From Cellulophaga algicola DSM 14237 (lineage in GTDB: Bacteria; Bacteroidota; Bacteroidia; Flavobacteriales; Flavobacteriaceae): DNA of 64,000 nt. The stretch's first letter is position 1. The number at the start of each line of letters is the position of its first letter. The stretch covers positions 2,914,001 to 2,978,000 of the forward strand of contig NC_014934.1 in NCBI RefSeq assembly GCF_000186265.1. Direction: 5' to 3'. Below, piece after piece: positions 1,002 to 23,419 of this stretch. The notes under the pieces were generated by a model that had not been told where the DNA came from, did no database searches, and worked only from the letters and a program-made list of their open reading frames with translations. The position numbers were made by a program, and so were the translations under genes.

Positions 1002-1335
1002 GCTTCCAGCATTGTAAAATGTCCTACAAAGAAGTTTTTTTTAAAATGCTGATTTCATTCTTTAAACACGAAATTCATAAATAGTATTCTTCTATTGAAT
1101 TTTTAATAAAATATTGTCTAGTTGTGTTTGATTTCGCTTGAAACACTATTAAATAGCTTCTTTTTTTTGGTTTTGTTCAGTTTTTGTCTAGTCTATTTAG
1201 TGTGGGTAACTATATTAAATTGATAATTTAGTGCCGATAAAATTATTGTTTATCTAATATATCTATTTGTAAATAAGAATTTATTAAAAATAACTCACCA
1301 AAACTTGTTTAATACTAATTAACTCAAACAAATTT
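1002..1335. other. AT-rich leader of the first SusC operon
   Basis: No gene is visible. The stretch is very AT-rich. A near-match to the flavobacterial -7 box (TCTATTTG, 1262-1269; one mismatch to TAnnTTTG) lies 66 bp before the susC start, but no correctly spaced TTG was found. A 7-bp inverted repeat (CAGCATT...AATGCTG) follows the regulator stop, but its loop is too long for a confident terminator. Confidence 0.3.
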
Positions 1336-4300: not shown

Positions 4301-4461
4301 AAGTAAGGTTGTATTTAACTTCCGTAAACCCATTTACATTTACAGATTATACCGGATACGATCCTGAAGTTGGAGGAGATGGTATTTTTACAAGAGGTGT
4401 AGATAGAGGTAACTACCCTGTTACAAGACAATTTATGTTAGGTGTTCAATTAAGTTTTTAA
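1336..4461 (+). CDS. SusC-family TonB-dependent outer-membrane transporter
   Basis: The product has 1041 residues, normal for SusC/RagA. It has a signal peptide ending near YAQ (residue 29) and a carboxypeptidase-regulatory-like domain at about 31-115 (GTVIDEQGTPVPGVSILKQG). The plug begins at VVVGYGTQKKKEITGSV and runs to the conserved VYGVRASNGVILITTKKG near residue 235. The 22-strand barrel region ends in a terminal phenylalanine. An Asp/Asn-rich calcium-type loop (DSDNDGIADQADGKIDD) lies in an extracellular-loop region near residue 855. It is followed after 10 bp by susD, the standard pair importing oligosaccharides or peptides across the outer membrane. The substrate cannot be read from sequence; no glycoside hydrolase is in this operon. 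Confidence 0.95.
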   Translation: MKKKDKLWRRILSVFSLLMILVVQQGYAQGAITGTVIDEQGTPVPGVSILKQGTKEGSVADFDGNFAINASKGEVLVFSSIGFKSQKVTVGAASNLRIVLIEDTELLNEVVVVGYGTQKKKEITGSVANVSSETIVKTATSDLGTALQGKVAGVNIQAGSGRPGESANVQIRGLGSISSGGLGPLYVVDGIPFDGNPNIAPEQIESIDILKDGASAAVYGVRASNGVILITTKKGKAGKMKIDISTYTGIQNITSGTPLMNTTEQLYELEQKTELLGTEPLTFFLNANVLDYDSNFVEEVQNDNAVIQNLDVNISGGVENLTLNFNTNYFKQEGVLINSGFNRLTNRFTGQFTKGKFKAFASMGYSVENRDQEPFALYEYAIAQAPWNKPLKDIPSVGQNSVELDVDNDILFSFLSRQLDNVDEREVKSDNIALSLEYEIIDGLKYKINLGRNSYNYFRKFFKPQYLAFTNQGVLNATASNIQASLNEDYTFSKRETIENIVTYDKSFNKHNFNFTGVISYEEFNSRALGVGVIYSEDASNDLQTLGSGAEGIKPSSINVNSTLAGKLARLQYNFDEKYLFSASIRHDGSSNFTKDNRYGSFPSVSIGWNISEENFFKNITSVNSLKIRASWAKLGNQNTGAAYSAIPIIESGVNYPFGPNEELGFGNVQRRYTNSDLKWETTISKNIGIDLSMFQNKLSVTADVYENNKEDMLLQERLPASSGTYQPRAADVYSVRTVNAGNMVNKGLEIAASYKDRIGDDFKYTISGTFTKNKNEVLDLNGVERGYANGRPIVSQGTNVDYTTFLAEGYEAGAFFLVQNDGVIKTQEQLDTYKLIDGGAQLGDLMMIDQLTIDSDNDGIADQADGKIDDNDRVYSGSGQADFEAGLNLSLEYKGFDFYAQTYFSYGAEIYNGAKLYAYGGGRHKDLYSMWTPQNPDSDIPTDRQNAFHNNVRARSDYFLEDGTYFRIRTLTLGYTIPGITETSGIEKVRLYLTSVNPFTFTDYTGYDPEVGGDGIFTRGVDRGNYPVTRQFMLGVQLSF

Positions 4462-4471
4462 AGCTAGAAAT

Positions 4472-6196: not shown

Positions 6197-6205
6197 TATA
6201 CTATT

Positions 6206-7777
6206 ATGAAAAAAATAAAATTATTTGGCTTTGCCATTGTTTCATTGCTAGCATTTTATGCCTGTACAGAAGAAGATGAGGTAAAGCTTACTGAAGCCAG
6301 CCATAGGGCTATTGTAACTTCAGAAATGAATTTCGAAAATAAGATTAATGTAGGTGGGCATATAGATTTTGGTGATATTTCATCGGGTGTTGTATCTCGT
6401 ACTTGGACGTTTCCTGAAGGTGTTGCAGATGTATCTACTTCTTCTGATGCTGTAGTTAAAGCTACATTTAGTAAAGTAGGAGTGCATAATGTAACGCTGA
6501 AACAAACATTTGCAAATGAAGCCTATGCAGATGAGCGTACAACACCTAGTGGCGCTACGGAGTTAGACACGACTATTGTAGTGACGGTTTTAGGAGATGT
6601 AACGGCACAGATTCAGGCAAATTACATCAATGCTGATGGCTCTTTAGGAGCAGAATTATCATTAGTAGATAATGCAGAAAATGTAATAACAGCAAGTAAC
6701 TATATTAGATTGAGCTATACCGCAGAAGGTGACCCAATCAATTTTATTTGGAACTTACCTAATGCTAAGCCAAACACATTGCAAAATCCAGAGGGAGATG
6801 CAGATGTAAGGTATAGTAAAGTAGGTATTCATGATTTAGAATTTATTGCCTCTAGAAGTAGACCCTTTGGAGGTGATACTATATCTATTAAAAACTTTAT
6901 AAAAGTAATCCCGTCTACCGATCCTGTTATTCTAGACGCGGTCTCTGATAAAGAGGGTAAAGTTGCTTTGGAATTTAGTAGAGATATGGATGCAGCAACT
7001 GCAGCTAAAACAGACTTTTCTATTTCAATTGAAACAGCAGGTGGAGCTATAATTTCTCCACAAATTGCATCAATCACAACAGATCCTGTAGATGAAAATA
7101 TTCTTTTATTGGAATTAGAAGGAGAAAGAGTGTATAATAATGATAAGGTCATGGTTTCTTATACGGCAGGCGAATTAAGCACTCTAGATGCTGTAGCGGC
7201 AACATCTTTTACAGATGAGGTACTTGTATTCAATACCGTAAATATGCTAGAGAATAGCAATTATGATTATAGTTTTGAGAATACAACCAATACCAATTGG
7301 CCTTATCTATTTTGGGGAGGAAATTGGGGTGAGTATGACTTTAGTTTATCTTCAGTACGAAGTCAAGACGGGAGTAAAAGTGCCTATGTAGAATTTAGAC
7401 CTGAAGGTGGTATGGTAATTAGCCATACAGATATGCTTGGGGAAAATGCAATAGTTTCTTTGGTAGCAGGAACCACATATGAAGTAGGGGTGTGGATTTA
7501 TATTGATGGCCCCTTCTTTACAGCTCCTTACCCAACCAGTGGTAACTTTGTGTCAGATTTAAGATTTTACCCTAGAAGCTATGGTTTTGAAGCAGTAACT
7601 ACATTTTTTACAGAAGATTTTCCTGTGAATGAATGGGTGTACACTTCTGCCTTTATTACGCCAGGCGCAGACGAAGATGTAAATTTTGTCATTCGCGGTT
7701 ATAATGTCGGCAATGGTCAAACTTTAAAATTTTATATGGATAATATCAGCGTTGCAAAAGTTGAAATTAGACCATAA
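6206..7777 (+). CDS. PKD-domain lipoprotein, likely surface glycan-binding protein
   Basis: The product has 523 residues and a lipoprotein signal ending at Cys20 followed by TEEDE. Two PKD-like beta domains are visible (about 40-125, with RTWTFPEG and GVHNVTLKQTF; about 135-235, with INFIWNLPN and KVGIHDLEF). A SwmB/Big_5-like Ig module follows (about 240-345, LEFSRDMDAATAAKTDFSISI). The C-terminus (350-523) resembles a jelly-roll carbohydrate-binding module ending in LKFYMDNISVAKVEI. It occupies the SusE/SGBP position directly after susD. By inference it is a surface glycan-binding protein that feeds the upstream SusCD pair. No catalytic motif is visible. Confidence 0.75.
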   Translation: MKKIKLFGFAIVSLLAFYACTEEDEVKLTEASHRAIVTSEMNFENKINVGGHIDFGDISSGVVSRTWTFPEGVADVSTSSDAVVKATFSKVGVHNVTLKQTFANEAYADERTTPSGATELDTTIVVTVLGDVTAQIQANYINADGSLGAELSLVDNAENVITASNYIRLSYTAEGDPINFIWNLPNAKPNTLQNPEGDADVRYSKVGIHDLEFIASRSRPFGGDTISIKNFIKVIPSTDPVILDAVSDKEGKVALEFSRDMDAATAAKTDFSISIETAGGAIISPQIASITTDPVDENILLLELEGERVYNNDKVMVSYTAGELSTLDAVAATSFTDEVLVFNTVNMLENSNYDYSFENTTNTNWPYLFWGGNWGEYDFSLSSVRSQDGSKSAYVEFRPEGGMVISHTDMLGENAIVSLVAGTTYEVGVWIYIDGPFFTAPYPTSGNFVSDLRFYPRSYGFEAVTTFFTEDFPVNEWVYTSAFITPGADEDVNFVIRGYNVGNGQTLKFYMDNISVAKVEIRP

Positions 7778-8467: not shown

Positions 8468-8753
8468 TTGGCAATTTTTAGGTTACTAAATCATAAAATT
8501 TAAGGAATTAAGAGGGGAAGAATTTTTATTGAGAACTGTTTTTTTTTAGTTTAGAAACTATACTTCTGTTAGGTAGATAGGTAACAATGCTCATAATCAA
8601 ATAGCTTATAATTATCATAAGCGTATTCTAGCATGTCTTTTTTTGTCAAATGTCAAAAAAAAGTAGGGTCATTTTATAGAATGAAGCGATAACAGCATAC
8701 TGTTAACCTAATTTTAACAGATAAATTAAACTCAATAAAAACTAAACTAAATT
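8468..8753. other. Leader region of the starch SusC operon
   Basis: No gene is visible. The stretch is AT-rich with long T and A runs (around 8527-8550 and 8638-8662). A possible operator lies at its right end (listed separately). No clear TTG-N19-TAnnTTTG promoter was found. Confidence 0.4.
8700..8720. promoter_or_regulatory. Inverted repeat upstream of the starch susC
   Basis: CTGTTAA and TTAACAG form a perfect 7-bp inverted repeat separated by 7 bp, 33 bp before the susC start. The spacing suits a dimeric regulator operator. A role in maltodextrin control is inference. Confidence 0.35.
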
Positions 8754-11700
8754 ATGAATAGAAGATTTTACAAGTTCTTTTTGATCATGTTATTTGTTCC
8801 ATTATGGGCTATATCTCAAGAACAAATTTCAGGATTAGTTACAGATCAAGCTAGTGGAGATCCATTACCAGGAGTCAGTATTATTTTGAAGGGAACTACA
8901 AAAGGTGTTTCCACAGATTTTGACGGTAATTTTACTATTGAGGCAGCTCAAAATGATGTACTGCAGTTTTCTTATATCGGTTATACGTCTACTGAAGTTA
9001 AAGTGTCTGGTACGACTATGAATGTTTCATTAGAAACAGATACACAATTGTTGGAAGAAGTGGTGTTAATTGGTTATGGTACTGCCAAAAAAGAAGATCT
9101 GACCGGCTCAGTGGATGTATTGTCTTCAAAAGATTTTAATCAAGGCTCCGTAGTTTCTGCTGATCAATTGTTAACCGGTAAAATGGCAGGGGTACGTATT
9201 ACCTCTAACGGCGGGCAACCCGATGCAGCTCCAAACATTAGAATTAGAGGAGGCTCTTCTTTATCAGCAAATAACAGTCCGTTAATCGTAATAGATGGTA
9301 TTCCTGTAGATAATACAAACCCTGCGGGTGTTGGTAATCCATTATCATTGATTAACCCAAATGATATAGAAAGTTTTAGTGTCTTAAAAGATGCTTCTGC
9401 GACTGCTATTTATGGATCTAGAGCATCTAATGGTGTGATTATTATAGCTACTAAAAAAGGAACATCAGGCGATGTTAAATTCAATTTCTCATCAGACGTT
9501 TCTGTAAGCAATGTGGCTAGTACTATAGATGTAATGGATAGTAATCAATATGTGAATTTTATTAGTACCTACCATCCATCTTTTACAAATTTATTAGGAG
9601 TAGATGACCCAAGTACTACGGCAGTAGACAACCCATTAACAGCAGCTATAGAAGGCAGAATTATTGGTGACACCAATTGGCAAGATGAAATATTTAGAAC
9701 AGCAATTTCTGCCAATACTAACTTTAGTGCAAGAGCTAATTTAGGAGGTAAAATACCATTTAGAGGTTCTATTGGGTATACAAATACTGGGGGTGTAGTT
9801 AAAACTAACGATTATGAAAGAGTTACTTTGTCGGTTAAGTTAACTCCGACTCTTTTAGACGATCATCTGAAAATAAATGTAAATGCAAAAGGCCTTTTTT
9901 CTGATAAAAATGCTATAGATGAAGGTGGTGCATTAGGAGGTGCTATTAATATGGACCCTACTAAACCCGTTCTTGATCTTGATCCTAACAATAGGTTTGG
10001 TGGGTTTTACCAAAATACAATTGTAGATGGTAATCGGTTATTATTAGATGGTCAAAGCAATCCATTAGCTTTACTTAAACAAAGAGAAAGACCAGAACAA
10101 GTTGCTCGTATATTAGGGAATATAGAGTTAGATTATAAATTACATGCTTTACCAGAATTAAGAGCGGTAGTTAATCTTGGTTTAGAAGCTTCAAAAGCTA
10201 CTATTGAAGAAAAATATTTTGATAATGCTATAGCTACCTATAGATTTAATAATGCAGATACCGATATTAATACCAATTATCTGTTTAATCCTGGGGTGAA
10301 CTACACAGAAGACCAAGAGATTACCAATACAACTTTAGATGCCTATTTAGTATATACTAAAGAATTGGAAAGTTTTGTGAAACGCTTAGAGGTTCAAGGC
10401 GGTTATTCTTATCAAAACTTTGAAAATGATGGTACTTCTGTAAGATATAGATACAACGATGAAACAGGCACACGTGAAGAACTTATAAATGAGAATAACC
10501 TCACCAATAGATATTACAATGTTTTAAATCTGCAGTCTTATTTTGGAAGAACGAATATTGATTTAGCAAACCAATTTTTAGTAACATTATCTTTCAGAGC
10601 TGATGGTTCTTCATTATTTACGAAAGAGAACAGATGGGGATACTTTCCTGCAGCAGCGGTAGCTTGGAAAATTGGCAAGGCTGGTTTTGTAGCAAATTCA
10701 AACGTAATTAATGATCTAAAACTTAGATTAGGTGCAGGTAAAACGGGGCAGCAAGATATAACAGGAGCTGTTGGTTATTACCCATCATCACCTTTGTTTA
10801 CCATTGGCTCTACAACTAGTCAGTATTTAAACGGAGTAAACTTATATTCTGCTAAGGCATTTAATCCAGATTTAACTTGGGAAAAGACCACAACCTTCAA
10901 CGTTGGTTTAGATTTCGATTTATTTAACAATGGAATTGTTTCTGGTTCGGTAGATTTTTACCAAAAAGAAACCAAGGATTTGTTGGCAAGAACCGCTGTA
11001 CCACCAGGGCAAGCATTATCCGATGCTTTTGTGCAAAATGTAGGGGAGACAGAAAGCAAAGGTTTTGAGGTTAATTTAAACCTTAGACCTATTAGTACAG
11101 AAGATTTTACATTTGAATTCAATTCTAATATAGGGTACAATAGAGCTGAAGTTACGAGTTTAAAAGATGTAACGAGAATTACAGCGGCTGAATCTGGCCT
11201 GCCTACAGGAACAGGAGTTAGTTTGGCATACCATGCTGTAGGATACCAGCCGTATTCTGCTTGGGTTTTTAAGCAGGTGTATGATACCAATGGAGATCCT
11301 ATTTCCAATGCTTTTGTAGATATTAATGGAGATAATAGTATTGATAATGATGATAGGTACTATGAAACCTTAAGGCCAAACTGGACTTATGGCTTTGGAC
11401 TTAATTTTAATTACAAAAATTGGGACTTAAGTTCTAGCTTCAGAGGTCAAATAGGTGGACAAGTATATAATGCAAGGAGGTTAACTTCTGGTTGGATAGA
11501 TAGAGCAATACCAAACAATAGCAATAGCTTAAGTAATGTTTTGGATTTCAATTCTGATGCCGCTACTACATCATTTGTAAATGTACAGGGGAATATCCCG
11601 TTTTCAGATTATTTTTTAGAAGATGCCTCTTTCTTAAGAATGGAAAATATAGTTATTGGTTTTAGAGTACCTAACTTCTTAAAAGAGACTTCTTTGAGAA

Positions 11701-11834
11701 TTTACGGAGCAGCCAATAACCTTTTTGTAATAAGTGATTACAGCGGGCAAGACCCTGAGAATTTTAACGCAATAGATAACAATTTCTACCCAAGACCTAG
11801 AGTATTCACCTTGGGATTAAACTTAGACTTTTAG
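8754..11834 (+). CDS. susC: SusC-family TonB-dependent transporter, starch/maltodextrin type
   Basis: The product has 1026 residues. It has a signal peptide ending near WAISQ, a carboxypeptidase-like regulatory domain (GLVTDQASGDPLPGVSIILK), a plug starting at VLIGYGTAKKEDLTGSV and ending at IYGSRASNGVIIIATKKG, and a long barrel ending LGLNLDF. SusC proteins import oligosaccharides using TonB energy. The substrate follows from context: susD 4 bp downstream, then a SusE-like protein with three starch-binding-type modules and a GH13 amylase. The gene name is given by this context and family, not by specific residues. Confidence 0.93.
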   Translation: MNRRFYKFFLIMLFVPLWAISQEQISGLVTDQASGDPLPGVSIILKGTTKGVSTDFDGNFTIEAAQNDVLQFSYIGYTSTEVKVSGTTMNVSLETDTQLLEEVVLIGYGTAKKEDLTGSVDVLSSKDFNQGSVVSADQLLTGKMAGVRITSNGGQPDAAPNIRIRGGSSLSANNSPLIVIDGIPVDNTNPAGVGNPLSLINPNDIESFSVLKDASATAIYGSRASNGVIIIATKKGTSGDVKFNFSSDVSVSNVASTIDVMDSNQYVNFISTYHPSFTNLLGVDDPSTTAVDNPLTAAIEGRIIGDTNWQDEIFRTAISANTNFSARANLGGKIPFRGSIGYTNTGGVVKTNDYERVTLSVKLTPTLLDDHLKINVNAKGLFSDKNAIDEGGALGGAINMDPTKPVLDLDPNNRFGGFYQNTIVDGNRLLLDGQSNPLALLKQRERPEQVARILGNIELDYKLHALPELRAVVNLGLEASKATIEEKYFDNAIATYRFNNADTDINTNYLFNPGVNYTEDQEITNTTLDAYLVYTKELESFVKRLEVQGGYSYQNFENDGTSVRYRYNDETGTREELINENNLTNRYYNVLNLQSYFGRTNIDLANQFLVTLSFRADGSSLFTKENRWGYFPAAAVAWKIGKAGFVANSNVINDLKLRLGAGKTGQQDITGAVGYYPSSPLFTIGSTTSQYLNGVNLYSAKAFNPDLTWEKTTTFNVGLDFDLFNNGIVSGSVDFYQKETKDLLARTAVPPGQALSDAFVQNVGETESKGFEVNLNLRPISTEDFTFEFNSNIGYNRAEVTSLKDVTRITAAESGLPTGTGVSLAYHAVGYQPYSAWVFKQVYDTNGDPISNAFVDINGDNSIDNDDRYYETLRPNWTYGFGLNFNYKNWDLSSSFRGQIGGQVYNARRLTSGWIDRAIPNNSNSLSNVLDFNSDAATTSFVNVQGNIPFSDYFLEDASFLRMENIVIGFRVPNFLKETSLRIYGAANNLFVISDYSGQDPENFNAIDNNFYPRPRVFTLGLNLDF

Positions 11835-11838
11835 GATT

Positions 11839-13374
11839 ATGAAGAAAATTATAATAACCTTTTTTGGTGTGCTCTTGTTAGGTAACATGAGTTGTACCAA
11901 TGATTTAGATACAGATCCAATAGTAGAATTAACTTTAGAAGAATTACTAAATAGAGACCCAAATGCCGTACAAGGTATCGTTTCTAGATTGTATGGATCT
12001 TTTGCGCTTTCAGGTCCCGATGGGCCAGAAAGCTCAGACATTAGTGATGATGCAGGGGAATCTCCTTTTTTAAGAGGAATCTTAAACCTTCAAGATTTTA
12101 CAGCAGATGGCATTAAAAATAGATGGGGAGATGATGGTCTAGATCAACTGACAACAACAGCTAACTGGGATGAAAATAACAAATTCTTTAGATATTTATA
12201 CAATAGAATTTACTACACAATTCCCCAATGTAACAACTTGCTTTCTGTTTTAGACAATGTAGATACAGAAGCTAAGGATGAAGTTATAGCAGAAGTACGT
12301 TTTATAAGAGCTTTAGCATATTATTATCTCATAGATACTTTTGGAAAAGGAGTATTGGCTACTGAAGAAAATTTTGGAACCTCGGCACCATTACCTGAAG
12401 CCACAAGAGCAGAGTTATATGCTTATGTGGAATCAGAATTACTTGCTGTTATTGAAACGTTACCGAATACAAATGATTATGGTAGAGCTAACAAAGCAGT
12501 TGGTAATATGCTATTAGCCAAGCTGTATATCAATGCAGAGGTTTATACAGGAACAGGTAAATATACAGAAGCACTTTCTGCTATAACTAAAGTAATTACT
12601 GAAGGTGGTTATACACTAGCAGATAGTTATGTAAGTGTGTTTTCAGGAGATAATAACACATCGTCAGAAATTATTTTTCCGCTAATAGCCGATGCGGTAA
12701 CTAGTCAAAGTTTTGGAAACACAACATATATCGTTAACGGTTCTAGTAGTTCTGAAACAATGACCTTAGCAGAGTATGGTTTAACAGAAGGTTGGGGAGG
12801 CCACAGAGCATCTAAAGGTTGGTATGGTTTGTATGGTGATTTGGAAACCACTACAGATGATAGAGCAGCTTTGTTTTTTACCGAAGGTCATTCGTATGAA
12901 ATGAACGATTATAAGACTTGGACAGATGGTTACCCTTCAATAAAATTTAGAAATACGAATGCTTTGAGTTCGTCTTCTGCCCCGACACAATTTTCAGGAA
13001 CTGACTTTCCATTATTTAGATTAGCAGATGCTTATTTAATGTTCACAGAGTGTGCTATTAGGACAAATCAGAACTTAGGAGAAGCTTTAGATTACCTAAA
13101 TCAGGTAAGAGTAAGAGCAAACGCAACACCCATAAATACGGGAGATCTTACCTTAGATTTTGTCTTAGATGAACGTGCTAGAGAACTAAACTTAGAAGGT
13201 CATAGAAGAACAGACTTAATACGTTTTGGAAAGTTTACAGGCAATACGTACGTATGGCCTTGGAAAGGCGGAGTAGCAGCAGGTACTGCAATACCAGATA
13301 CTTATAAATTGTTTCCAATTCCTTTACAGGCATTAGAAGCAAATCTTAACCTAAAGCAAAATAACGGATACTAA
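11839..13374 (+). CDS. susD: SusD-family starch-binding lipoprotein
   Basis: The product has 511 residues with a lipoprotein signal ending at Cys19. It keeps the SusD helical scaffold (VRFIRALAYYYLIDTFGKG), the central ADAYLMFTECAI helix and the C-terminal DERARELNLEGHRRTDLIRF signature. It lies 4 bp after susC and 18 bp before the susE-like gene. Expected role: the outer-membrane lid that captures maltooligosaccharides over the SusC barrel. The first start fits the signal peptide well. Confidence 0.93.
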   Translation: MKKIIITFFGVLLLGNMSCTNDLDTDPIVELTLEELLNRDPNAVQGIVSRLYGSFALSGPDGPESSDISDDAGESPFLRGILNLQDFTADGIKNRWGDDGLDQLTTTANWDENNKFFRYLYNRIYYTIPQCNNLLSVLDNVDTEAKDEVIAEVRFIRALAYYYLIDTFGKGVLATEENFGTSAPLPEATRAELYAYVESELLAVIETLPNTNDYGRANKAVGNMLLAKLYINAEVYTGTGKYTEALSAITKVITEGGYTLADSYVSVFSGDNNTSSEIIFPLIADAVTSQSFGNTTYIVNGSSSSETMTLAEYGLTEGWGGHRASKGWYGLYGDLETTTDDRAALFFTEGHSYEMNDYKTWTDGYPSIKFRNTNALSSSSAPTQFSGTDFPLFRLADAYLMFTECAIRTNQNLGEALDYLNQVRVRANATPINTGDLTLDFVLDERARELNLEGHRRTDLIRFGKFTGNTYVWPWKGGVAAGTAIPDTYKLFPIPLQALEANLNLKQNNGY

Positions 13375-13392
13375 CGAACTTAAACCATAACT

Positions 13393-14760
13393 ATGAAAAA
13401 TATAAAAATTATAGGATTATTCATCTTAGCTACATTAAGCTTAGCTTCTTGTGAGGACGATGACAACTTAGTATACACAGCGCAAGCACCATCAGAAAAT
13501 GTTGCATTCACCAGTACATTTTTGAATGAATATATCTTAACAGATGCCACAAAAGCAAATATAGCGGAGCGTTTTGTTTGGAATTCTCCTGATTTTGGTA
13601 TAGCATCACCAAATGCATATGATCTCCAAGGATCTGTTACAGAAGATTTCGCAGAAGTAATCGCCTTGGTTAGTACTACTCCAGAAACTAATTTTGGAGT
13701 TACAGTCGATAAAATGTTAGAACTGGCGACAAGTGCAGGGTTAGACAATGACCCAAGTACTGCAGATATGCCAAATACGGGCGTATTGTATTTTAGAGTT
13801 AGAGCATACCTTGGGGATGGCGCCGAAAATGCACCAGAAAGTTTTTCTACTGTTACAGCATTAAACGTTGTTTTACCAGAAGAAACAGAAGCGGGTAGCG
13901 GTGTAGAATTATCATCTTGGGGTATTGTAGGTTCTGCAACACCTAATGGTTGGGATGGCCCAGACGTTCTTTTTTATGTGACAGAAGACCCTAATATTAT
14001 AGTTTCTTATGCCAACCTTGTTCCTGGAGAAATTAAATTTAGAGAAAACAATACTTGGGGTGGCGATTTAGGAGATGCTACCTTAGATGGTATTTTAGAT
14101 GCTGATGAAAACAATAATATTGTAATAGCAGAAGCGGGTTCATTTAAAATCACTATTAATTTGAGTGATAATTCTTATACCATGGAAGAGTATTTCTGGG
14201 GTATTGTGGGAAGTGCTGCTCCTAACGGTTGGGATGGTCCAAATGTAAAGCTAGCCTATGATTATACTACAGATACGTTTAAAGCCGTAGTGCAACTCGT
14301 TGATGGGGATATGAAAGTTAGAATGAATGATCTCTGGGATACTAGCTATGGAGATGGTAATTTAGACGGTATTCTTGATACCGATGCAGATAATAATATT
14401 GTTGTTACTGCTGGCTATTATCTATTAACGGTTGATTTTAATAGTTTAGCCTATACATTAGAAGAAACTACAATTTGGGGCTTAGTAGGTTCTGCAACAC
14501 CTAATGGTTGGGATGGTCCAGACACTAAATTTAGTCCAGATTTTACAAATCCTGGGGTGTGGACAATAGCTAGTATAGATTTGGTAGCTGGCGAAATAAA
14601 GGTCAGAGCTAATGATACTTGGGATGCAAGTTACGGTGATTTAGAAGCAGACGGAATATTAGATACAGAAGATGATAATAATATAACTGTTGTAGCTGGC
14701 ACTTATAAAATAACAATTGATTTTTCTGATGAAGCTTCCCCTACAATTGTAATTGAATAA
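13393..14760 (+). CDS. susE: SusE-like lipoprotein with three tandem starch-binding-type modules
   Basis: The product has 455 residues; the lipoprotein signal ends at Cys20 followed by EDDDN, matching a surface-export signal. A SusE-type N-terminal domain (about 25-165) precedes three copies of a module of about 93 residues starting near 174, 267 and 360. Each opens with W-G-(I/L)-V-G-S-A-x-P-N-G-W-D-G-P and later carries a (D/E)-(I/M)-K-(F/V)-R-x-N-(N/D)-x-W block and an Asp-rich DGILD-x-(D/E) turn. SusE/SusF modules bind starch at the cell surface. Three near-identical modules suggest recent internal duplication and avidity for polymer. Confidence 0.92.
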   Translation: MKNIKIIGLFILATLSLASCEDDDNLVYTAQAPSENVAFTSTFLNEYILTDATKANIAERFVWNSPDFGIASPNAYDLQGSVTEDFAEVIALVSTTPETNFGVTVDKMLELATSAGLDNDPSTADMPNTGVLYFRVRAYLGDGAENAPESFSTVTALNVVLPEETEAGSGVELSSWGIVGSATPNGWDGPDVLFYVTEDPNIIVSYANLVPGEIKFRENNTWGGDLGDATLDGILDADENNNIVIAEAGSFKITINLSDNSYTMEEYFWGIVGSAAPNGWDGPNVKLAYDYTTDTFKAVVQLVDGDMKVRMNDLWDTSYGDGNLDGILDTDADNNIVVTAGYYLLTVDFNSLAYTLEETTIWGLVGSATPNGWDGPDTKFSPDFTNPGVWTIASIDLVAGEIKVRANDTWDASYGDLEADGILDTEDDNNITVVAGTYKITIDFSDEASPTIVIE

Positions 14761-14813: not shown

Positions 14814-17800
14814 ATGAAAAAAACAGTACTACTTCTCTTTTTGATGAGTGCAGCACTAGGTTTTGCACAACAGCAAAATGTAAGCTATGCTATTGCTCCA
14901 GAAGCTTTTGCAGAGAATGAAGAAATTACGATCACAGTTTCCGATTTAGAGGTGTCTACTTGGGGTGTTTCAGAGGCATATCTTTGGGCTTGGTCTTTAG
15001 ATGCTAATGGGGAAAATACCGTAGACTCTCCAACCAATGGGAGCTGGACAAGTTCTAACGAAGACCAGAAACTTACGGATAACGGTGATGGAACTTTTAG
15101 TTTTACACTAACACCTGCTACTTTTTTTAATAGAACAAATATTGGTAAAATAGGCATATTAGTAAAAGCTAAAAATGGCGATGGCGATAAAAAAACACAA
15201 GATTTTATTTTTAATGTAGGCACATTTCAATTTAATCTAATTACACCTACAGAAACTACCACTGTATTAAATGCAGGAGAGGCTTTAGCTATTTCAGCTA
15301 CTGCATCGCTAAACGCAACTTTTGTTTTAAAAGCCAATGGTCTCACCCTAGATACACAAGCTGCAATTACGGAGTATAGTTATGCGCATACCGTTTCGGG
15401 TACTACAAATTTTATTTTAGAGGTTACGAGTGGTACAGAAACAAAATCAAGGTCATTTACAGCAATAGTAGCTCCAACAGTAGAAGAAGCACCAGTACCA
15501 GCCAATGCATTAGATGGAATTAATTTAGACCCGACCGATGCTACAAAAGCAACCTTAGTGCTATATGCGCCGGGGAAAGATTTTGTGCACCTTATCGGCG
15601 ATTTTAACAATTGGCAGGTTTCAGATGCGTACCTATTAAAAAAGGATAGTTCAAAAGATAGGTTTTGGATTGAATTGAGCAATTTAACAGCCCAAACCAA
15701 TCATCTTTACCAATACCTTGTGGAGTTTGATCTGAAAATTGCAGACCCTTATTCCACCTTAATTTTAGATGGGTATGGAAACGATGCTTTTATTGATGAG
15801 GTAACCTTTCCTGACCTTCCATCGTACCCTGCGGGACAAACTGATGCGATTACTGTTTTAAGAACTGGAGATCCAGAATTTGTTTGGGAGCATACCAATT
15901 TCATTAAACCAAAGAAAGATGATTTAGTAATCTACGAGCTATTGGTTAGAGATTTTGATGCACGTCATAGTTTTGATGCGGTAAAAGAACGCTTAGATTA
16001 TTTACAAGACTTAGGGATCAACGCTATTGAGTTGATGCCTGTTAATGAATATGATGGGAATGAAAGTTGGGGGTACAACCCAGCTTTTCATATGGCTTTA
16101 GATAAATACTATGGTACCAAAGACGCTTTAAAAGCATTAATAGACGAATGTCATGCTAGAGGAATAGCCGTTATTATAGATGTTGTTTATAACCATGCAT
16201 CAGGTCAGCATCCCTACTATAGAATGTGGAATACGGATAACGGAGGTAGTGGCGGACAAGCAGCTATGGATAATCCATTTTTCAATCAATCAGCCACGCA
16301 TTCCTATAGCGTTTTTAATGATTTTAATCATCAGAGTCAAGCTACTAAAGAGTATGTAAATAGAACGCTAACATATTGGATTGAAGAGTTTAAGATAGAT
16401 GGAATGCGTTGGGATCTTACCAAAGGATTTACGCAAAACTGTTCCGCCTCAGATGAAAATTGTACCAATAGCACCCAACAAGATAGAATAACCGTTTTAC
16501 AAGAGTATGCAGATACGCAATGGCTATCAGATGATAATTTTTATGTGATTTTTGAACACTTGGGAGCACTGCAAGAAGAAGAACAGTGGGCAGATTATCG
16601 TATAGATGAAGGTAAAGGAATATTGCTTTGGAACAAACAAACGGAAGCTTACAATGAGGCAACTTTAGGTTTTAATAGTAGCTCTAATTTTTCCGGAGTT
16701 TCCTATGTCGAAAAAGGATTTAAGCAACCGTCGGCAGTATCTTTTATGGAGAGTCACGATGAAGAACGCTTGATGTTTAAAAATTTAGAATTTGGTAATT
16801 CTAATGGTAGCTATAAGGTAAAAGATATACCCACAGCCTTAAGCAGAATGGAAACAGCAGGTGCTTTCTTTTTTACCGTTCCTGGTCCAAAAATGATATG
16901 GCAATTTGGAGAGTTAGGCTATGACGTTTCCATTGATGAGAACGGTAGGGTAGGAAATAAGCCTATTCGCTGGGAGTATCTTGCAGATGCGAATAGAAAA
17001 GCATTATATGAAACATGGGCAAAATTAATCGACTTAAAAGTTAAGGAGCCAATTTTTGAAACAACAGATTTTGAATTGGATTTTGGTAGTACTACGGGTT
17101 TAAAGAAAATTCACCTTGCACTAGCGGGAGCTGCACCTGATGAAATTAAATATGTAACCATTATAGGCAACTTCGGAGTTACAGCACAATCCATTATTCC
17201 TGAATTTCAGGAAACGGGTATTTGGTATGAATTTCTAAATGAAAATTTAAAATACGTGGTAACAGATACACATGATCAGATTGTATTGGCACCGGGTGAA
17301 TACAGAATATTTGGTGATAAGCCAACGGCGCTATTCCCGAATAGCAATTTACCAGATCAAGATCATGATGGTGTGCAAGATGCAGATGACGTATGTCCAG
17401 ACACGCCTCTTGGAGCTACTGTAAATGTAAAGGGATGCGTGGTATTTATACTGCCCGCAACTAATTTTCAATTAAAAATAAAGGATGAAACCTGCAGCGA
17501 AAGTAATAATGGGAGTATAACAATAACTGCGGTAGAAAATTATGAATATACGGCTACCGTATCAGGAGACGCAACAGGCAGCGAGGCATTCAATACATCA
17601 ACCTCTTTTACAGATTTAGCTGCGGGAAATTACACGATTTGTATACGGGTTGAAGAAGAAAATTATTCCCAATGTTATGAGGTAATGATTGGGGAGCCAG
17701 AAGCTCTGACTGTTTCTTCTAAAATAAATACGGAAAATAGTACCGCTACTTTGAGTTTAAAAGGGGCAGATACCTTTTACGTAACCGTAAATGAAAAAAC

Positions 17801-18158
17801 ATTTACAACTCAAAGTAGTGAAGTAATCATTGCTTTAGAGGCTTTTGAAAATGTGATACAAGTTAAAACAGCTAAAGATTGCCAAGGATTATATGAAGAA
17901 ACAATAGTGGTTCAAAATCAATTAACCATCTATCCCAATCCTGTCGTAAATGATATTTTACATCTTAATTTGAAGACTAAAAAGGTAGAAGAGGTAACCA
18001 TAGCAATGTATGCATCTAGTGGAGCACAGGTACTCTATGCTACGTATCCTGTAGTTAATAATGTGGTTGAGGTAAATGTAGCTAAGCTCCCAAAAGGAGT
18101 TTTTTATATGCGTGTTGATTTAAGAAATGAAGCATTGAACTTTAAAATTTTAAAATAA
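14814..18158 (+). CDS. Secreted multidomain GH13 alpha-amylase with T9SS sorting domain
   Basis: The product has 1114 residues. After a signal peptide (ending FAQ) come E-set/Ig-like domains (about 20-230) and a CBM48-like module (about 240-330, LIGDFNNW). The GH13 barrel carries region I DVVYNHA (456-462), nucleophile Asp534 in GMRWDL, acid/base Glu581 in FEHL and Asp649 in SHDE. A thrombospondin-type-3 calcium repeat (DQDHDGVQDADDVCPDTP) and a beta domain precede a C-terminal type A sorting domain (LTIYPNPV...ALNFKILK). It should hydrolyse starch or pullulan-type glucans at the surface or outside the cell after export by T9SS. It replaces the lipoprotein SusG of Bacteroides. It overlaps the next gene by one base. 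Confidence 0.93.
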   Translation: MKKTVLLLFLMSAALGFAQQQNVSYAIAPEAFAENEEITITVSDLEVSTWGVSEAYLWAWSLDANGENTVDSPTNGSWTSSNEDQKLTDNGDGTFSFTLTPATFFNRTNIGKIGILVKAKNGDGDKKTQDFIFNVGTFQFNLITPTETTTVLNAGEALAISATASLNATFVLKANGLTLDTQAAITEYSYAHTVSGTTNFILEVTSGTETKSRSFTAIVAPTVEEAPVPANALDGINLDPTDATKATLVLYAPGKDFVHLIGDFNNWQVSDAYLLKKDSSKDRFWIELSNLTAQTNHLYQYLVEFDLKIADPYSTLILDGYGNDAFIDEVTFPDLPSYPAGQTDAITVLRTGDPEFVWEHTNFIKPKKDDLVIYELLVRDFDARHSFDAVKERLDYLQDLGINAIELMPVNEYDGNESWGYNPAFHMALDKYYGTKDALKALIDECHARGIAVIIDVVYNHASGQHPYYRMWNTDNGGSGGQAAMDNPFFNQSATHSYSVFNDFNHQSQATKEYVNRTLTYWIEEFKIDGMRWDLTKGFTQNCSASDENCTNSTQQDRITVLQEYADTQWLSDDNFYVIFEHLGALQEEEQWADYRIDEGKGILLWNKQTEAYNEATLGFNSSSNFSGVSYVEKGFKQPSAVSFMESHDEERLMFKNLEFGNSNGSYKVKDIPTALSRMETAGAFFFTVPGPKMIWQFGELGYDVSIDENGRVGNKPIRWEYLADANRKALYETWAKLIDLKVKEPIFETTDFELDFGSTTGLKKIHLALAGAAPDEIKYVTIIGNFGVTAQSIIPEFQETGIWYEFLNENLKYVVTDTHDQIVLAPGEYRIFGDKPTALFPNSNLPDQDHDGVQDADDVCPDTPLGATVNVKGCVVFILPATNFQLKIKDETCSESNNGSITITAVENYEYTATVSGDATGSEAFNTSTSFTDLAAGNYTICIRVEEENYSQCYEVMIGEPEALTVSSKINTENSTATLSLKGADTFYVTVNEKTFTTQSSEVIIALEAFENVIQVKTAKDCQGLYEETIVVQNQLTIYPNPVVNDILHLNLKTKKVEEVTIAMYASSGAQVLYATYPVVNNVVEVNVAKLPKGVFYMRVDLRNEALNFKILK

Positions 18159-18859
18159 TGAATAATCCTTTTAACTATATAATGCTCCTTTTTGTTAGTG
18201 TTTTCTGCGCTTCATGCGGGGGAGGAGATAGTTCAGAAACGCCCACAAATCCTGTTCCCATACCAACTGCAGCATTACTCGTTTTTCCCGAGAATAATAC
18301 CGAATGTAATGAAGGAGAAATTTTATCTGAAACAGAGAGTCTGGTGGTCTTTAAATGGAATGATGCTGAAGACACAGATAGCTATACCGTAAATTTAAAA
18401 AATCTGAATACTGGCGCAACAGCTAATTTCAATGGTGATCAGAATGAATTACCAATTACTATACAACGAGGAACACCTTATGAGTGGAAAGTAATCTCTA
18501 AAGCTAACGGTACGCAAGAAAATACAGAAAGTAAAGCTTGGAGATTCTATAACGCCGGGTTAGCTGTGGAAAGTCATACGCCCTTTCCTGCAGAGGTAGT
18601 ATTTCCTAAAATGGGATCAATGATTTCTTCTGGAACAGTAGCATTGCGCTGGGTAGCAGAAGATGTAGATGATGATATAACTTCTTATAGCGTAGTAATA
18701 GATGAAAATAGTGTGCCCATTACTGTAATTGGTGAAACAAACGAAATGACTTTAGATGCTACAGTACTTGTAAATCGTATTTATCATTGGCAAGTGACCA
18801 CATTAGACGCTCAAGGCAACACTTCAAAATCGCCAATTTTTGAGTTCAGGGTTAATTGA
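18158..18859 (+). CDS. Small lipoprotein with fibronectin-III-like modules, end of starch operon
   Basis: The product has 233 residues; the lipoprotein signal ends at Cys20, followed by Gly residues and a Pro/Thr linker. Two beta-sandwich modules resemble fibronectin III (about 40-130, VVFKWNDAEDTDSYTVNL; about 140-233, VALRWVAEDVDDDITSYSVV). Its ATG overlaps the amylase stop (TAATG), so translation is probably coupled. It has no enzyme motif. A role as an accessory surface protein for the amylase or Sus complex is inference from position only. Confidence 0.7.
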   Translation: MNNPFNYIMLLFVSVFCASCGGGDSSETPTNPVPIPTAALLVFPENNTECNEGEILSETESLVVFKWNDAEDTDSYTVNLKNLNTGATANFNGDQNELPITIQRGTPYEWKVISKANGTQENTESKAWRFYNAGLAVESHTPFPAEVVFPKMGSMISSGTVALRWVAEDVDDDITSYSVVIDENSVPITVIGETNEMTLDATVLVNRIYHWQVTTLDAQGNTSKSPIFEFRVN

Positions 18860-19001: not shown

Positions 19002-19031
19002 TTGAAAGCTTTAGATTGTAGTATACATTTG
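19002..19031 (+). promoter_or_regulatory. Promoter of the membrane AraC sensor gene
   Basis: TTG (19002-19004), 19-bp spacer, TACATTTG (19024-19031). This is an exact match to the Bacteroidota -33/-7 pattern TTG-N19-TAnnTTTG, 61 bp before the start codon. Confidence 0.75.
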
Positions 19032-19092: not shown

Positions 19093-20937
19093 ATGTTTAA
19101 AAGTATAAGTTTTTTTACGTTATTTTTAATAGTAACATTTTTCAATTGCTCCTTATTTCTGAATGCGCAAACTACATTTGTATTAGACGATGTAGCTCCA
19201 AGCGGCATTGATGAGCCTACCTACTATCTTTCTGGCAGTTTTAATGAATGGGAGCCGGGAAACACTCGATACAAATTTGAAAAAAAACAAGACGGAAAAT
19301 ATTACACCAAACCGCTAGTTTTTGAGGATGCCACCATAATGTTTCTGGTGACTCGTGGAAGCTGGGAGACAGTAGAAGTAGAAGGTGACGGATTGCCAGT
19401 GCTCACTAGAAAAATATCATTCGCACAACCTATAGATTCGCTACATTTAAAAATTTCGGGTTGGGCAGATATAGAAGGGCGTGCTATTAGCGCAAAAAAG
19501 ATAACCGTTAAAGTAACTGAGATACCCAAATCTACACCACCAGATGCCCCTATCTACATTGCGGGTAATTTTAATGGATGGGTTCCAGGAGATAAACGGT
19601 ATAAATTGCTAAAGGCTGATGATGGTTCTTACCACATTGATGTACCCTTGTATTATCCAAGACTAGCCTATAAATTCACACGGGGTAATTGGTATACGGT
19701 AGAAGGTAAAGCTTATGGTAGACCAAGAAATGATCGTTTTAAATTAATATCAAATGAAACTTTAAATGAACCCTTAATAGAACAGATATCGTATTGGGAA
19801 GATCAATCTTCAGGATTGTTTAATCCGTATACTTTAATCCTTATACTTGCGGGTATTCAGGGTATATTTTTGATTTTCATTATCAATTCTTATGACAATA
19901 ACAACCGGATAGCGAACCGCGTTTTAAGTGTTTTACTATTATTATTAGCCATTATATTGCTTACTAGAGTGTCTTTATATGATCGAGATATCTATAATAG
20001 TTATCCACGCCTCTCACTATTCCAAGATTTGGTGTATTTCTTGTACGCGCCTATATTTTTTATCTATATCAAAAAATTATTGAAAATACCTTCAAATCCT
20101 AAAGCACCAAATCATTGGTGGTACTTTGTACCCTTTATGGTTCAGGTGATTGTATATCTATTATTTTTCTTTGAGCCATTACACCAATTTATTGATAGAG
20201 CTGTTTCTCGTTTTTATCCATCAGAGATCTATATTACTATAGGAGGTATTGCCCTATTGTTTAATATTTGGTTCTGGTTTAAAATTAGACAGGTCATAAA
20301 AAACTATTTAAAAAATATAGAAAACACCTATTCTTATGATCAGGATATAAATTACTTAAATACTATTATGCTCTTAAAAGGGGGCTGCCTATTGCTATGG
20401 GTGCTTATATTTATTGTAGGTGGTTATGGGTATATTATGACGAACAGTTTAAGTACCCTAACCTTATTTCTTGTAGATAGTATTTGGATTTTATTTTCCT
20501 TAACTGTTTTTTTATTAGGGTATTATGCCATTAAGCAACCAGCAATTTTTAAAATTCATGAAGTAAAGGAAGTAATTCCTAAGGCAAACACGAACGATAA
20601 CGAATTTCTTCAATTAAAGGAGAAGCTCATACAGTGTATGGAAATAGAAAAAGTATTTTTAGACCCTGCGCTTAGTCTTCCTGAGCTCGCACAGAAATTA
20701 CAGACGAATGTGCATTTACTTTCAAGAACTATCAATGATGGATTTGATAAGAATTTTAGAGATTATGTTAATGAATATAGGGTAACCACCTTTATAGAAA
20801 AAGTAAATAAAGAAGGATACAGAAATCACACTTTCTTAGGTATAGCCTTAGATGTTGGCTTTAATTCAAAATCGTCTTTCAATAGATCGTTTAAAAAAAT
20901 TACAGGTAAGACACCACGAGAGTATTTTAAAGCATAG
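19093..20937 (+). CDS. Membrane-spanning starch-sensor: two CBM-like modules, 7 TM, AraC HTH
   Basis: The product has 614 residues. A signal peptide (about 1-25) leads to two starch-binding E-set/CBM20/48-like modules outside the cytoplasm: YYLSGSFNEWEPG with TRGSWETVE (about 40-100) and IYIAGNFNGWVPG with TRGNWYTVE (about 155-215). Seven hydrophobic helices span about 244-479. A cytoplasmic AraC-type DNA-binding domain occupies about 505-614 (LSLPELAQKLQTNVHLLSRT; FNSKSSFNRSFKKITGKTPREYF). An odd number of helices puts the modules in the periplasm and the HTH in the cytoplasm. It has its own promoter and lies between two GH13 genes. By inference it senses maltodextrin directly and controls the starch locus. 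The usual Bacteroidota alternatives are SusR-type or hybrid two-component sensors. Confidence 0.88.
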   Translation: MFKSISFFTLFLIVTFFNCSLFLNAQTTFVLDDVAPSGIDEPTYYLSGSFNEWEPGNTRYKFEKKQDGKYYTKPLVFEDATIMFLVTRGSWETVEVEGDGLPVLTRKISFAQPIDSLHLKISGWADIEGRAISAKKITVKVTEIPKSTPPDAPIYIAGNFNGWVPGDKRYKLLKADDGSYHIDVPLYYPRLAYKFTRGNWYTVEGKAYGRPRNDRFKLISNETLNEPLIEQISYWEDQSSGLFNPYTLILILAGIQGIFLIFIINSYDNNNRIANRVLSVLLLLLAIILLTRVSLYDRDIYNSYPRLSLFQDLVYFLYAPIFFIYIKKLLKIPSNPKAPNHWWYFVPFMVQVIVYLLFFFEPLHQFIDRAVSRFYPSEIYITIGGIALLFNIWFWFKIRQVIKNYLKNIENTYSYDQDINYLNTIMLLKGGCLLLWVLIFIVGGYGYIMTNSLSTLTLFLVDSIWILFSLTVFLLGYYAIKQPAIFKIHEVKEVIPKANTNDNEFLQLKEKLIQCMEIEKVFLDPALSLPELAQKLQTNVHLLSRTINDGFDKNFRDYVNEYRVTTFIEKVNKEGYRNHTFLGIALDVGFNSKSSFNRSFKKITGKTPREYFKA

Positions 20938-21050
20938 CTTATTGTTGATTCCCTTAGTGTAAATTAAGGTCAGTTTATAAATTGGGGCGATACCATGTGG
21001 GTAATAGTATAATTTGGAGGCACTTTTATTAATGTGTTAAAAAAAATATT

Positions 21051-22910
21051 ATGCTTCGTTTTACCTTGTTCCTATTCACATTTTTTGTGGTTACTTCTCA
21101 ATCACTATATTCTCAAAATCGTATAGAACGTATGGAGCCTCCAAATTGGTGGGTAGGTATGGTTTCAGAAGATCTTGAAATCATGGTCTATGGCAAAAAT
21201 ATTGGCTTGTGTGAAATTCGTTTGGAAAAGTATGACGGTGTGGTTTTAAAAGAGGTAAAGAAGGTACAGAATAGTAATTATGTGTTTATTAGCTTGACCA
21301 TAGCGCCTCAAACGGTACCCGGAAATTTAGTATTTACTCTAAACAGCGAAAAAGAAGCGCAAGTAGATTTTACCTATCCATTATTGAAAAGAGAAGGAAA
21401 TAAACAGCATACGGTTGGTTTCTCATCTGCTGATATGGTCTATTTAATTACTCCGGATAGGTTTGCTAATGGAAACACTTCGAATGATAATGTAAATGGC
21501 TTTGCAGATAAAGTAAATAGGAAAGACAAAGGGGGTAGACATGGAGGAGATATTCAGGGGATAATTAATCACTTGGGGTATCTATCAGATATGGGATTCA
21601 CATCGCTTTGGATTAACCCAACGCTAGAGAACGCCATGCCAAAGAATAGCTATCATGGGTATGCTATTACAGATTTTTATAAGGTAGATCCAAGGTTTGG
21701 ATCTAATGAGCTTTATAAGGTTATGGTTAAAAAAGCTAAGGAGAAAGGTTTGACTGTAATTATGGATATGGTAGCTAATCATATTGGTCTAAAACATTGG
21801 TGGATGAAAGATTTGCCATCACAAGATTGGATTAATCAATGGCCAGAATATACTGAAACCAACCATAGAAAATCTATCATTTTAGATCCTTATGCCGCAG
21901 CGGTAGATAGGAAAACGTTTTTTGATGGATGGTTTGTACCTACCATGCCAGATTTGAATCAAAAAAATCAAGAATTAGCAACTTACTTAATTCAGAATGC
22001 AATCTGGTGGATAGAATACTCTGGAATATCGGGTATTAGAATGGATACTTATCCCTATCCGGATATGGAATTTATGAATGATTGGTCTAAAGCAATTTCC
22101 GAAGAATATCCATTGTTTACTATCGTAGGAGAAGAATGGTCTACAAATCCTAATCAGGTTGCGTATTGGCAACAGGGAAAGAAAAATTATAATAATTATG
22201 AATCGCACTTAAAGAGTGTTATGGATTTTCCTTTACAAAGTGCCTTAGTAAATTCTTTGAATAGTGAAAAAACATGGGCTTCATCTTGGATAGAGCTTTA
22301 TGAAACTTTGGCTCAGGACTACGTGTATGCAGACCCAAATCAATTAATGATTTTTTCTGATAATCATGATATGAGTAGAATGTATACCCAGCTCAATGAA
22401 GATTTTGATCTTTATAAATTGGCTTTAGTATACCTAGCTACTACACGCGGTATTCCACAACTATATTATGGTACCGAAATTTTGATGACCAATCCAGGAA
22501 CAGATGATCACGGAATTATACGTTCAGATTTTCCAGGGGGTTGGGAAAATGATGCTATAAGTGCCTTTACAGGACTTGGTTTGTCATTAAAGCAGAAAGA
22601 AGCTCAAGAGTTTGTAAAGAAGCTGCTAAATTGGCGCAAAGGCGCAGCGGTAGTTCATGATGGAGCCTTAAAACATTTCGCTCCAAAAAATAAGGAGGAG
22701 GTATACGTGTTATTTAGATACAACGATCAAAAGAAAATTATGGTAGTCCTAAATAAAAATACCAAAAGTGTACGAGTGGACCTATCTACTTATAAAGAAG
22801 TTCTAGGAGAGGAATTAATAGGGACAGACATCTTAAGTGATGTTAAAATTAAGGAGGCATCTGAGTTGACGATAAAGGCGAGAAGTGCCATGATTATAGC
22901 GGTAGAATAA
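21051..22910 (+). CDS. susA: Periplasmic GH13 cyclomaltodextrinase/neopullulanase (SusA-like)
   Basis: The product has 619 residues with a signal peptide ending near LYSQ and no lipoprotein cysteine or sorting domain, so it is probably periplasmic. An N-terminal cyclomaltodextrinase E-set (RMEPPNWWVGM, about 27-125) precedes the GH13 barrel: DMVANH (239-244), nucleophile Asp332 in GIRMDTY, acid/base Glu361 in VGEEW, Asp440 in DNHD. A C-terminal cyclomaltodextrinase beta domain ends at IKARSAMIIAVE. It would degrade imported maltooligosaccharides. The alpha-glucosidase that usually completes this pathway is not in the window. Confidence 0.9.
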   Translation: MLRFTLFLFTFFVVTSQSLYSQNRIERMEPPNWWVGMVSEDLEIMVYGKNIGLCEIRLEKYDGVVLKEVKKVQNSNYVFISLTIAPQTVPGNLVFTLNSEKEAQVDFTYPLLKREGNKQHTVGFSSADMVYLITPDRFANGNTSNDNVNGFADKVNRKDKGGRHGGDIQGIINHLGYLSDMGFTSLWINPTLENAMPKNSYHGYAITDFYKVDPRFGSNELYKVMVKKAKEKGLTVIMDMVANHIGLKHWWMKDLPSQDWINQWPEYTETNHRKSIILDPYAAAVDRKTFFDGWFVPTMPDLNQKNQELATYLIQNAIWWIEYSGISGIRMDTYPYPDMEFMNDWSKAISEEYPLFTIVGEEWSTNPNQVAYWQQGKKNYNNYESHLKSVMDFPLQSALVNSLNSEKTWASSWIELYETLAQDYVYADPNQLMIFSDNHDMSRMYTQLNEDFDLYKLALVYLATTRGIPQLYYGTEILMTNPGTDDHGIIRSDFPGGWENDAISAFTGLGLSLKQKEAQEFVKKLLNWRKGAAVVHDGALKHFAPKNKEEVYVLFRYNDQKKIMVVLNKNTKSVRVDLSTYKEVLGEELIGTDILSDVKIKEASELTIKARSAMIIAVE

Positions 22911-23057: not shown

Positions 23058-23097
23058 AAAAAGCCTTTCGAATCTTTGATTCAAAAGGCTTTTTTTG
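23058..23097 (-). terminator. Terminator of tRNA-Lys copy 1
   Basis: A stem-loop (AAAGCCTTT paired with AAAGGCTTT, with inner GAATC/GATTC stem and AAA loop) begins just after the tRNA 3' end on the minus strand. T runs on both sides could make it bidirectional. It is repeated after the second tRNA copy. Confidence 0.8.
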
Positions 23098-23170
23098 TGA
23101 CCGGGCTGGGGCTCGAACCCAGGACCCTCTCCTTAAAAGGGAGATGCTCTACCAACTGAGCTACCAGGTC
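23098..23170 (-). tRNA. tRNA-Lys (anticodon TTT), copy 1
   Basis: This is a 73-nt cloverleaf read on the minus strand: GACCTGG acceptor, D-arm GCTC/GAGC, anticodon stem TCTCC/GGAGA with loop CTTTTAA (anticodon TTT), T-arm CTGGG-TTCGAGC-CCCAG, discriminator A. No CCA is encoded. The acceptor stem (GACCTGG with CCCGGTC) has a T5-C68 mismatch. Confidence 0.95.
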
Positions 23171-23306: not shown

Positions 23307-23346
23307 CAAAAAGCCTTTCGAATCTTTGATTCAAAAGGCTTTTTTG
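23307..23346 (-). terminator. Terminator of tRNA-Lys copy 2
   Basis: Same stem-loop as at copy 1, with one fewer T in the adjoining run. Confidence 0.8.
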
Positions 23347-23419
23347 TGACCGGGCTGGGGCTCGAACCCAGGACCCTCTCCTTAAAAGGGAGATGCTCTA
23401 CCAACTGAGCTACCAGGTC
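23347..23419 (-). tRNA. tRNA-Lys (anticodon TTT), copy 2
   Basis: Identical to copy 1 over all 73 nt, including the T5-C68 acceptor mismatch. CCA is not encoded. Confidence 0.95.

Follow-up and report, generated by a model that had tools for sequence, protein, structure and literature searches.

A predicted receptor combining CBM20-like modules, seven membrane helices and an AraC domain in a starch locus of Cellulophaga algicola, and its candidate operator

The window analysed here, a stretch of 64,000 nucleotides of the Cellulophaga algicola DSM 14237 genome, contains a SusC/D/E-GH13 locus, and within this locus lies a gene for a putative membrane-bound regulator with a C-terminal AraC-type DNA-binding domain. 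The following genes of the locus, given with their window positions, strand and the basis of assignment, are probable targets of the regulator:

8754..11834, plus strand: SusC/RagA TonB-dependent transporter (NCBIfam)
11839..13374, plus strand: SusD-like lipoprotein (NF033071, below its curated cut-off)
13393..14760, plus strand: SusE/SusF-like protein (Pfam)
14814..18158, plus strand: GH13 protein with a Por secretion tail and, below the Pfam cut-off, a CBM48-like part (Pfam)
18158..18859, plus strand: fn3 lipoprotein (Pfam)
21051..22910, plus strand: GH13 cyclomaltodextrinase/neopullulanase-like protein (Pfam)

The initial annotation placed the regulator gene between two GH13 genes, which is correct in that a GH13 gene lies on each side, but the upstream one is separated from the regulator by the fn3 lipoprotein gene at 18158-18859. 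With six GH13 open reading frames (ORFs) in the genome, we estimate the chance of such proximity at a few per cent. The regulator itself is composed as follows:

19093..20937, plus strand: one-component regulator of 614 amino acids with two CBM20-like modules, seven transmembrane helices and AraC domain (ORF, Pfam, structure model)
19093..19170, plus strand: signal peptide, residues 1-26 (assigned by eye; hydrophobic segment 7-23)
19171..19491, plus strand: module 1, residues 27-133 (homologous to module 2)
19492..19821, plus strand: module 2, residues 134-243, next to the membrane (predicted CBM20 fold; W, K, W and D at the contact positions)
19825..20535, plus strand: seven-helix membrane region, residues about 245-481 (hydropathy, model, loop charges)
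20686..20931, plus strand: AraC HTH_18 domain, residues 532-613 (Pfam)

The signal peptide, the two modules, the seven hydrophobic helices and the C-terminal AraC helix-turn-helix (HTH) that had been proposed from the sequence were thus all recovered on the 614-residue ORF. Pfam matches over the cut-off were HTH_18 (residues 532-613, E 1.1e-12, 48.5 bits against a cut-off of 33.6) and the related HTH_AraC (E 1.3e-7), and this C-terminal double-HTH domain assigns the protein to the AraC/XylS type. When the whole protein was scanned, no part beyond the HTH was recognised by Pfam or NCBIfam, and a phmmer search of the whole regulator against the PDB returned solely AraC-type domains below E 0.001. 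Histidine kinase and receiver domains were absent from the Pfam scan of the regulator, so that it does not classify as a hybrid two-component system.

Seven membrane helices at about 245-481 fit both the family-averaged hydropathy and the AlphaFold model, which places a further short helix (361-374) between helices four and five. The mean number of lysines plus arginines (K+R) per loop, with loop boundaries placed by hand, was 2.1, 3.9, 3.1 and 3.5 for the cytoplasmic loops versus 1.7, 2.3 and 1.0 for those outside, and K+R density was higher inside in 45 of the 58 fused proteins of the survey described below. This charge bias favours an N-out, C-in topology, with the HTH inside and the modules outside. 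The anatomy, the topology signal and the linkage to alpha-glucan genes support the earlier reading as a one-component transmembrane regulator, by prediction from the signal read by eye, the seven helices, the K+R bias and the C-terminal HTH.

The two ectodomain modules are homologous (40% identity over 85 amino acids, E 5e-14 in pairwise BLASTP) and carry the matching motifs noted before, GSFNEWEPG/TRGSW in the first and GNFNGWVPG/TRGNW in the second. Modelled alone, the ectodomain reached a good predicted local distance difference test score (pLDDT 87.9); module 2 is predicted to form a CBM20-type beta-sandwich, and the best VIA-align matches were starch-binding CBM20 domains. The regulator itself gave no Pfam CBM_20 or CBM_48 match at E up to 1; among 32 related modules, Pfam matches at E up to 0.01 were obtained to CBM_20 (6), AMPK1_CBM (7) and CBM_48 (2). 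The four AMPK-type sugar-contact positions of module 2 are conserved in nearly all 58 fused proteins, and the retention of these residues is consistent with an ectodomain that may bind alpha-glucans.

Full fusions of modules, helices and AraC domain were found in five families. They occurred in 9 of 397 genomes of the own family, in 3 of 395 in the order sample (all three from the own family), in 7 of 395 in the class sample (own genome included) and in 3 of 326 in the phylum sample, as well as in 5 of 13 genomes of family f17 (matches spanning module and helices), 9 of 147 of f30 and 61 of 150 of f82 (one match partial). A shorter seven-transmembrane (7TM)-AraC core without the modules is common in Flavobacteriaceae. 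For the analysis of gene neighbourhoods we compiled 58 fused loci, consisting of the own locus, 14 from the family, order and class surveys, three from f17, 10 of the 12 f30 places other than G921, and 30 from f82 that were chosen from the top by score (five were skipped, and G1106 was already included); flanks were shorter at contig ends. A GH13 gene was nearby in 40 of these loci, SusC/D/E-type genes in 37, and GH13 or a starch-type SusE in 46, versus none with GH13 or SusE among 19 core-only loci, one of which had SusC/D (Fisher p 2.8e-10; relatedness is ignored in this and all other P-values and counts). For one core-only locus, L168, the core gene was not among the script's own gene calls. 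Most of the fused homologues are linked to alpha-glucan genes. A chance fusion is rejected by the 58 fused loci in five families, and the 0 of 19 core-only loci likewise dismiss the idea that alpha-glucan linkage is a general trait of 7TM-AraC proteins. In a tree of 63 of 78 rows, with f82 thinned, the fusion required two changes, and one change in 17% of bootstrap trees, with a warning of long branches; a single origin is neither shown nor excluded by these sequences.

Alignment of upstream regions revealed a conserved block, the candidate operator with the consensus GGTCANTTTATANANTGNNGCGA, in front of susC in distant relatives and, in Cellulophaga, also in front of the second GH13 gene. In the window, the block and the box that follows it are found twice:

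8667..8689, plus strand: candidate operator GGTCATTTTATAGAATGAAGCGA upstream of susC (alignment, motif scans)
8709..8716, plus strand: -7-like box TAATTTTA, 19 nt after the susC operator (spacing scan)
20968..20990, plus strand: second candidate operator GGTCAGTTTATAAATTGGGGCGA upstream of the GH13 gene at 21051 (alignment, motif scans)
21010..21017, plus strand: -7-like box TAATTTGG, 19 nt after the second operator (spacing scan)

The operator precedes susC in nine of nine Flavobacteriaceae loci with 0-1 mismatches. In G137 and G227, which were unused in the motif definition, it stands before both susC and the GH13 gene, the latter site of G227 having 2 mismatches; weaker copies stand before the GH13 gene in other loci, of which that in G252 fell outside the script's pattern. 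In all 17 script-found sites TANNTT begins exactly 19 nt past the final A, the weakest being TAGATTAA at the GH13 site of G227, and the 19-nt spacer itself is about 30% identical between sites. A genome-wide search of 80 genomes with up to 1 mismatch returned 12 sites, which covered nine of nine regulator-positive genomes and all lay in the starch locus, and zero sites in all 71 regulator-negative genomes; a reversed control pattern gave one match across all 80. Operator and regulator therefore co-occur, and the regulator would be the protein that binds this conserved site.

The spacing can be compared with other promoters of the window. A nearly identical tandem pair of tRNA-Lys (TTT) genes lies on the minus strand (23097-23170 and 23346-23419, 249 bp apart), each preceded by a similar TTG-N19-TATATTTG promoter, which suggests that N19 is the normal spacing between the -33 and -7 boxes here, and hence that GCGA of the operator occupies the expected position of the -33 box. 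The looser pattern TTG-N19-TANNTTTG has 6 matches in the window versus about 2.2 expected, two of them upstream of the tRNA-Lys genes. The regulator gene was initially credited with a perfect promoter of its own, and the following pattern match is indeed present:

19002..19031, plus strand: possible regulator promoter TTG-N19-TACATTTG (pattern match; not conserved in C. baltica)

Since the comparison of upstream regions with C. baltica did not find the site conserved, this promoter is no more than plausible, and its standing as a conserved element is rejected. Autoregulation through the same operator is rejected as well, since only two operator sites with up to 4 mismatches exist in the 64 kb and neither precedes the regulator gene.

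Related sites occur in other families. In f82, 22 of 31 loci carry AAANTGGNRCGA followed by N19 (17) or N20 (5) and TANNTTTG, located before susC in 18 cases, before a GH13 gene in one (L174) and before a GH53-type gene in three (L188, L190 and L198), and this half-site pattern was not found in controls totalling 895 kb. Several f82 loci also have a distal palindrome resembling GTNCCANTTTATAAANTGGNAC; across the 31 loci, seven sites deviate from it by 1 mismatch, three by 2 and three by 3, and the 895 kb of controls contained none with fewer than 4 mismatches. The distance from the anchor TGRNRCGA to TANNTTT peaks at 19 in f82 (19 of 249 anchors) and in Flavobacteriaceae (8 of 61), and this distance was never observed in the other fused loci (106 anchors) or in the controls (292 anchors). 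In f30, looser operator copies precede GH13 genes in L205, L206 and L208 (3, 2 and 2 mismatches), and in L204 a small gene that itself precedes the GH13 gene. Upstream of susC in L176, L189, L191, L192 and L194, two palindrome-like sites are 81-105 bp apart, which could allow looping. The GH53-type, endo-galactanase-like genes behind the f82-type operator lie at 7323-8438 in L188, 7737-8852 in L190 and 15504-16667 in L198; Pfam was run on L188 and L198 for this assignment.

Alpha-glucans are a common food of Bacteroidota. The regulator is probably a one-component inner-membrane activator that responds to periplasmic maltodextrin and acts on the neighbouring starch genes through the operator. 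Starch oligomers brought in by SusC/D would reach the periplasm, where the membrane-proximal, CBM20-like module 2, possibly together with module 1, would bind malto-oligosaccharides. The conserved WED linker and the seven helices would relay binding to the cytoplasmic AraC domain without phosphotransfer, and this domain would occupy the 23-bp operator, which stands 19 nt before the -7 box where a -33 box is lacking, and recruit RNA polymerase to two promoters, one for susC-susD-susE-GH13-fn3 and one for the second GH13 gene. This reading builds on what was observed of the anatomy, the predicted fold, the topology signal, the linked genes, the conservation of the operator and its co-occurrence with the regulator; the ligand, the positive control, the extent of the operon and the binding of the operator by the regulator we infer.

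Several observations weigh against this interpretation. The helix region has low confidence in the full-length AlphaFold model (mean pLDDT 71.5). By the marker test, 12 of the 58 fused loci lack GH13 and SusE; Pfam does detect a GH13 domain in one of the 12 (L209), leaving 11 with neither in reach, some of which are cut by contig ends. SusC/D is present in three marker-negative loci (L184, L198 and L200), and L198 combines GH53 and SusC with no GH13 marker in reach. The operator motif was derived from seven of the nine loci, so that its presence there is by construction, and the 71 control genomes may also be without an orthologous susC, which could partly explain the absence of the operator. 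In f82, the half-site pattern is missing from 9 of 31 loci. In the window protein the equivalent of N150 is D, and module 1 has two of the four sugar-contact positions changed (K to L and N to T). Foldseek gave unrelated beta-sandwiches at similar E-values, with an S-layer protein first in one search and pilins and a pilus usher in another. Its structural matches also include CE1-type esterases, and related modules are carried by Pfam 'Esterase' proteins; for two CE1 esterases, the CBM48 modules showed no binding to any tested glycan (PMC8040265), and the fold is therefore no proof of glycan binding.

These esterases, a Foldseek match to a CBM48-type feruloyl esterase crystallised with xylobiose, and the gene content of L198 would also suit an ectodomain that recognises something other than starch, such as another glycan, a protein partner or peptidoglycan. 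However, the presence of GH13 or SusE near 46 of the 58 loci, the conserved sugar-contact residues and the starch-binding CBM20 domains as best VIA-align matches make this unlikely. Slightly less likely still, the regulator may repress in the absence of ligand, or its AraC domain may be freed by proteolysis instead of acting from the membrane. The sequence is compatible with both, and binding at the -33 position could equally obstruct the polymerase, but replacement of the -33 box at a fixed 19-nt spacing is the layout of an activator overlapping -35, as for AraC at araBAD, where the site overlaps -35. Least likely is that the operator belongs to another regulator or to the core promoter of this susC type while the membrane protein works at other sites: conservation of a promoter element can follow that of its gene, but this one also precedes non-susC genes (the GH13 gene at 21051; f30 L205, L206 and L208; f82 L174, L188, L190 and L198) and has no site in the 71 regulator-less genomes.

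The principle of one-component membrane sensing of maltose is already known. SusR of Bacteroides thetaiotaomicron is described, in the cited parts of the work on starch-locus control in Bacteroides, as a one-component membrane protein with a periplasmic maltose sensor and a cytoplasmic DNA-binding domain that activates susA and susBCDEFG (PMC3878776, PMC11633381). The two regulators would work alike, whereas the one described here has an AraC-type HTH, a CBM20-like sensor, seven helices and a quasi-palindromic candidate site. The DNA-binding domain of SusR is stated to have no significant similarity to those of other transcription factors (cited part of PMC3878776); we found no ground for membership in the SusR family, against which the AraC HTH speaks. 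Membrane AraC regulators of Saccharophagus degradans such as Sde_2491, with AraC HTH, 6-7 predicted helices and polysaccharidase genes alongside, were proposed to detect outside polysaccharide (PMC2386152). They resemble the regulator by description, but their neighbours are of the cellulase type and the cited part of that paper mentions no sugar-binding ectodomain. 7TMR-DISM receptors likewise combine an extracytoplasmic domain predicted to bind carbohydrate, seven helices and a cytoplasmic signalling module (cited part of PMC6107284), but differ in the ectodomain; the regulator had no Pfam match at E up to 1 to 7TMR-DISM families including PF07695, as judged without profile-profile comparison, and the one sub-cut-off PF07695 match in the genome lies elsewhere. 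Hybrid two-component systems also join a periplasmic glycan sensor and an AraC output in one chain (cited part of PMC3878776), but the regulator has no kinase or receiver domain. With the AMPK-beta glycogen-binding domain and CBM20 or CBM48, module 2 shares the fold and contact residues, here within a membrane receptor. What appears to be new is the single-chain combination of CBM20 sensor, 7TM region and AraC domain, together with how it is distributed and the predicted operator at a fixed promoter geometry; a limited search of the open-access literature found no description of this architecture. If the activator reading is correct, sensor, targets and DNA site become available together, and the two predicted promoters belong to a type strain that is in culture; a seven-helix receptor acting directly on a promoter would be useful for asking how signals cross the membrane without phosphate, and possibly as a part for sugar-responsive expression.

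Core-only 7TM-AraC genes (L088-L101, L115, L165 and L166) adjoin a beta-propeller gene on the same strand in 18 of 19 cases versus 0 of 58 fused ones, and in two cases the neighbour is SGL/NHL/Vgb-like by Pfam. It is possible that the beta-propeller protein serves as ligand sensor in trans. More tentatively, and on balance doubtfully, 7TM-AraC proteins across the phylum may form one receptor family whose shared core receives its input by either of two routes. In the fused proteins, CBM20 modules would sense maltodextrin in the periplasm and control starch loci via a conserved operator that takes the place of the -33 box; the short forms would rely instead on a distinct secreted beta-propeller protein from the adjacent gene (present for 18 of 19 cores). 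Such a family would represent a modular one-component class resembling G-protein-coupled receptors, with seven helices gating an AraC domain directly at the promoter.

At 96-7777 in the window, directly ahead of the starch locus, lies a second SusC/SusD pair with an additional lipoprotein; the ORF before them resembles a regulator and has, by eye, a LuxR-like HTH at its C-terminus. At 47015-49402, a lipoprotein-like ORF of 795 amino acids is built of many FNQDISNWDTSNVTNM-type repeats (by eye). In two of the surveyed loci, proteins of 1807 (L036, 8969-14392) and 1252 amino acids (L039, 8930-12688) apparently consist of many tandem modules resembling carbohydrate-binding modules or E-set domains, as read by eye.
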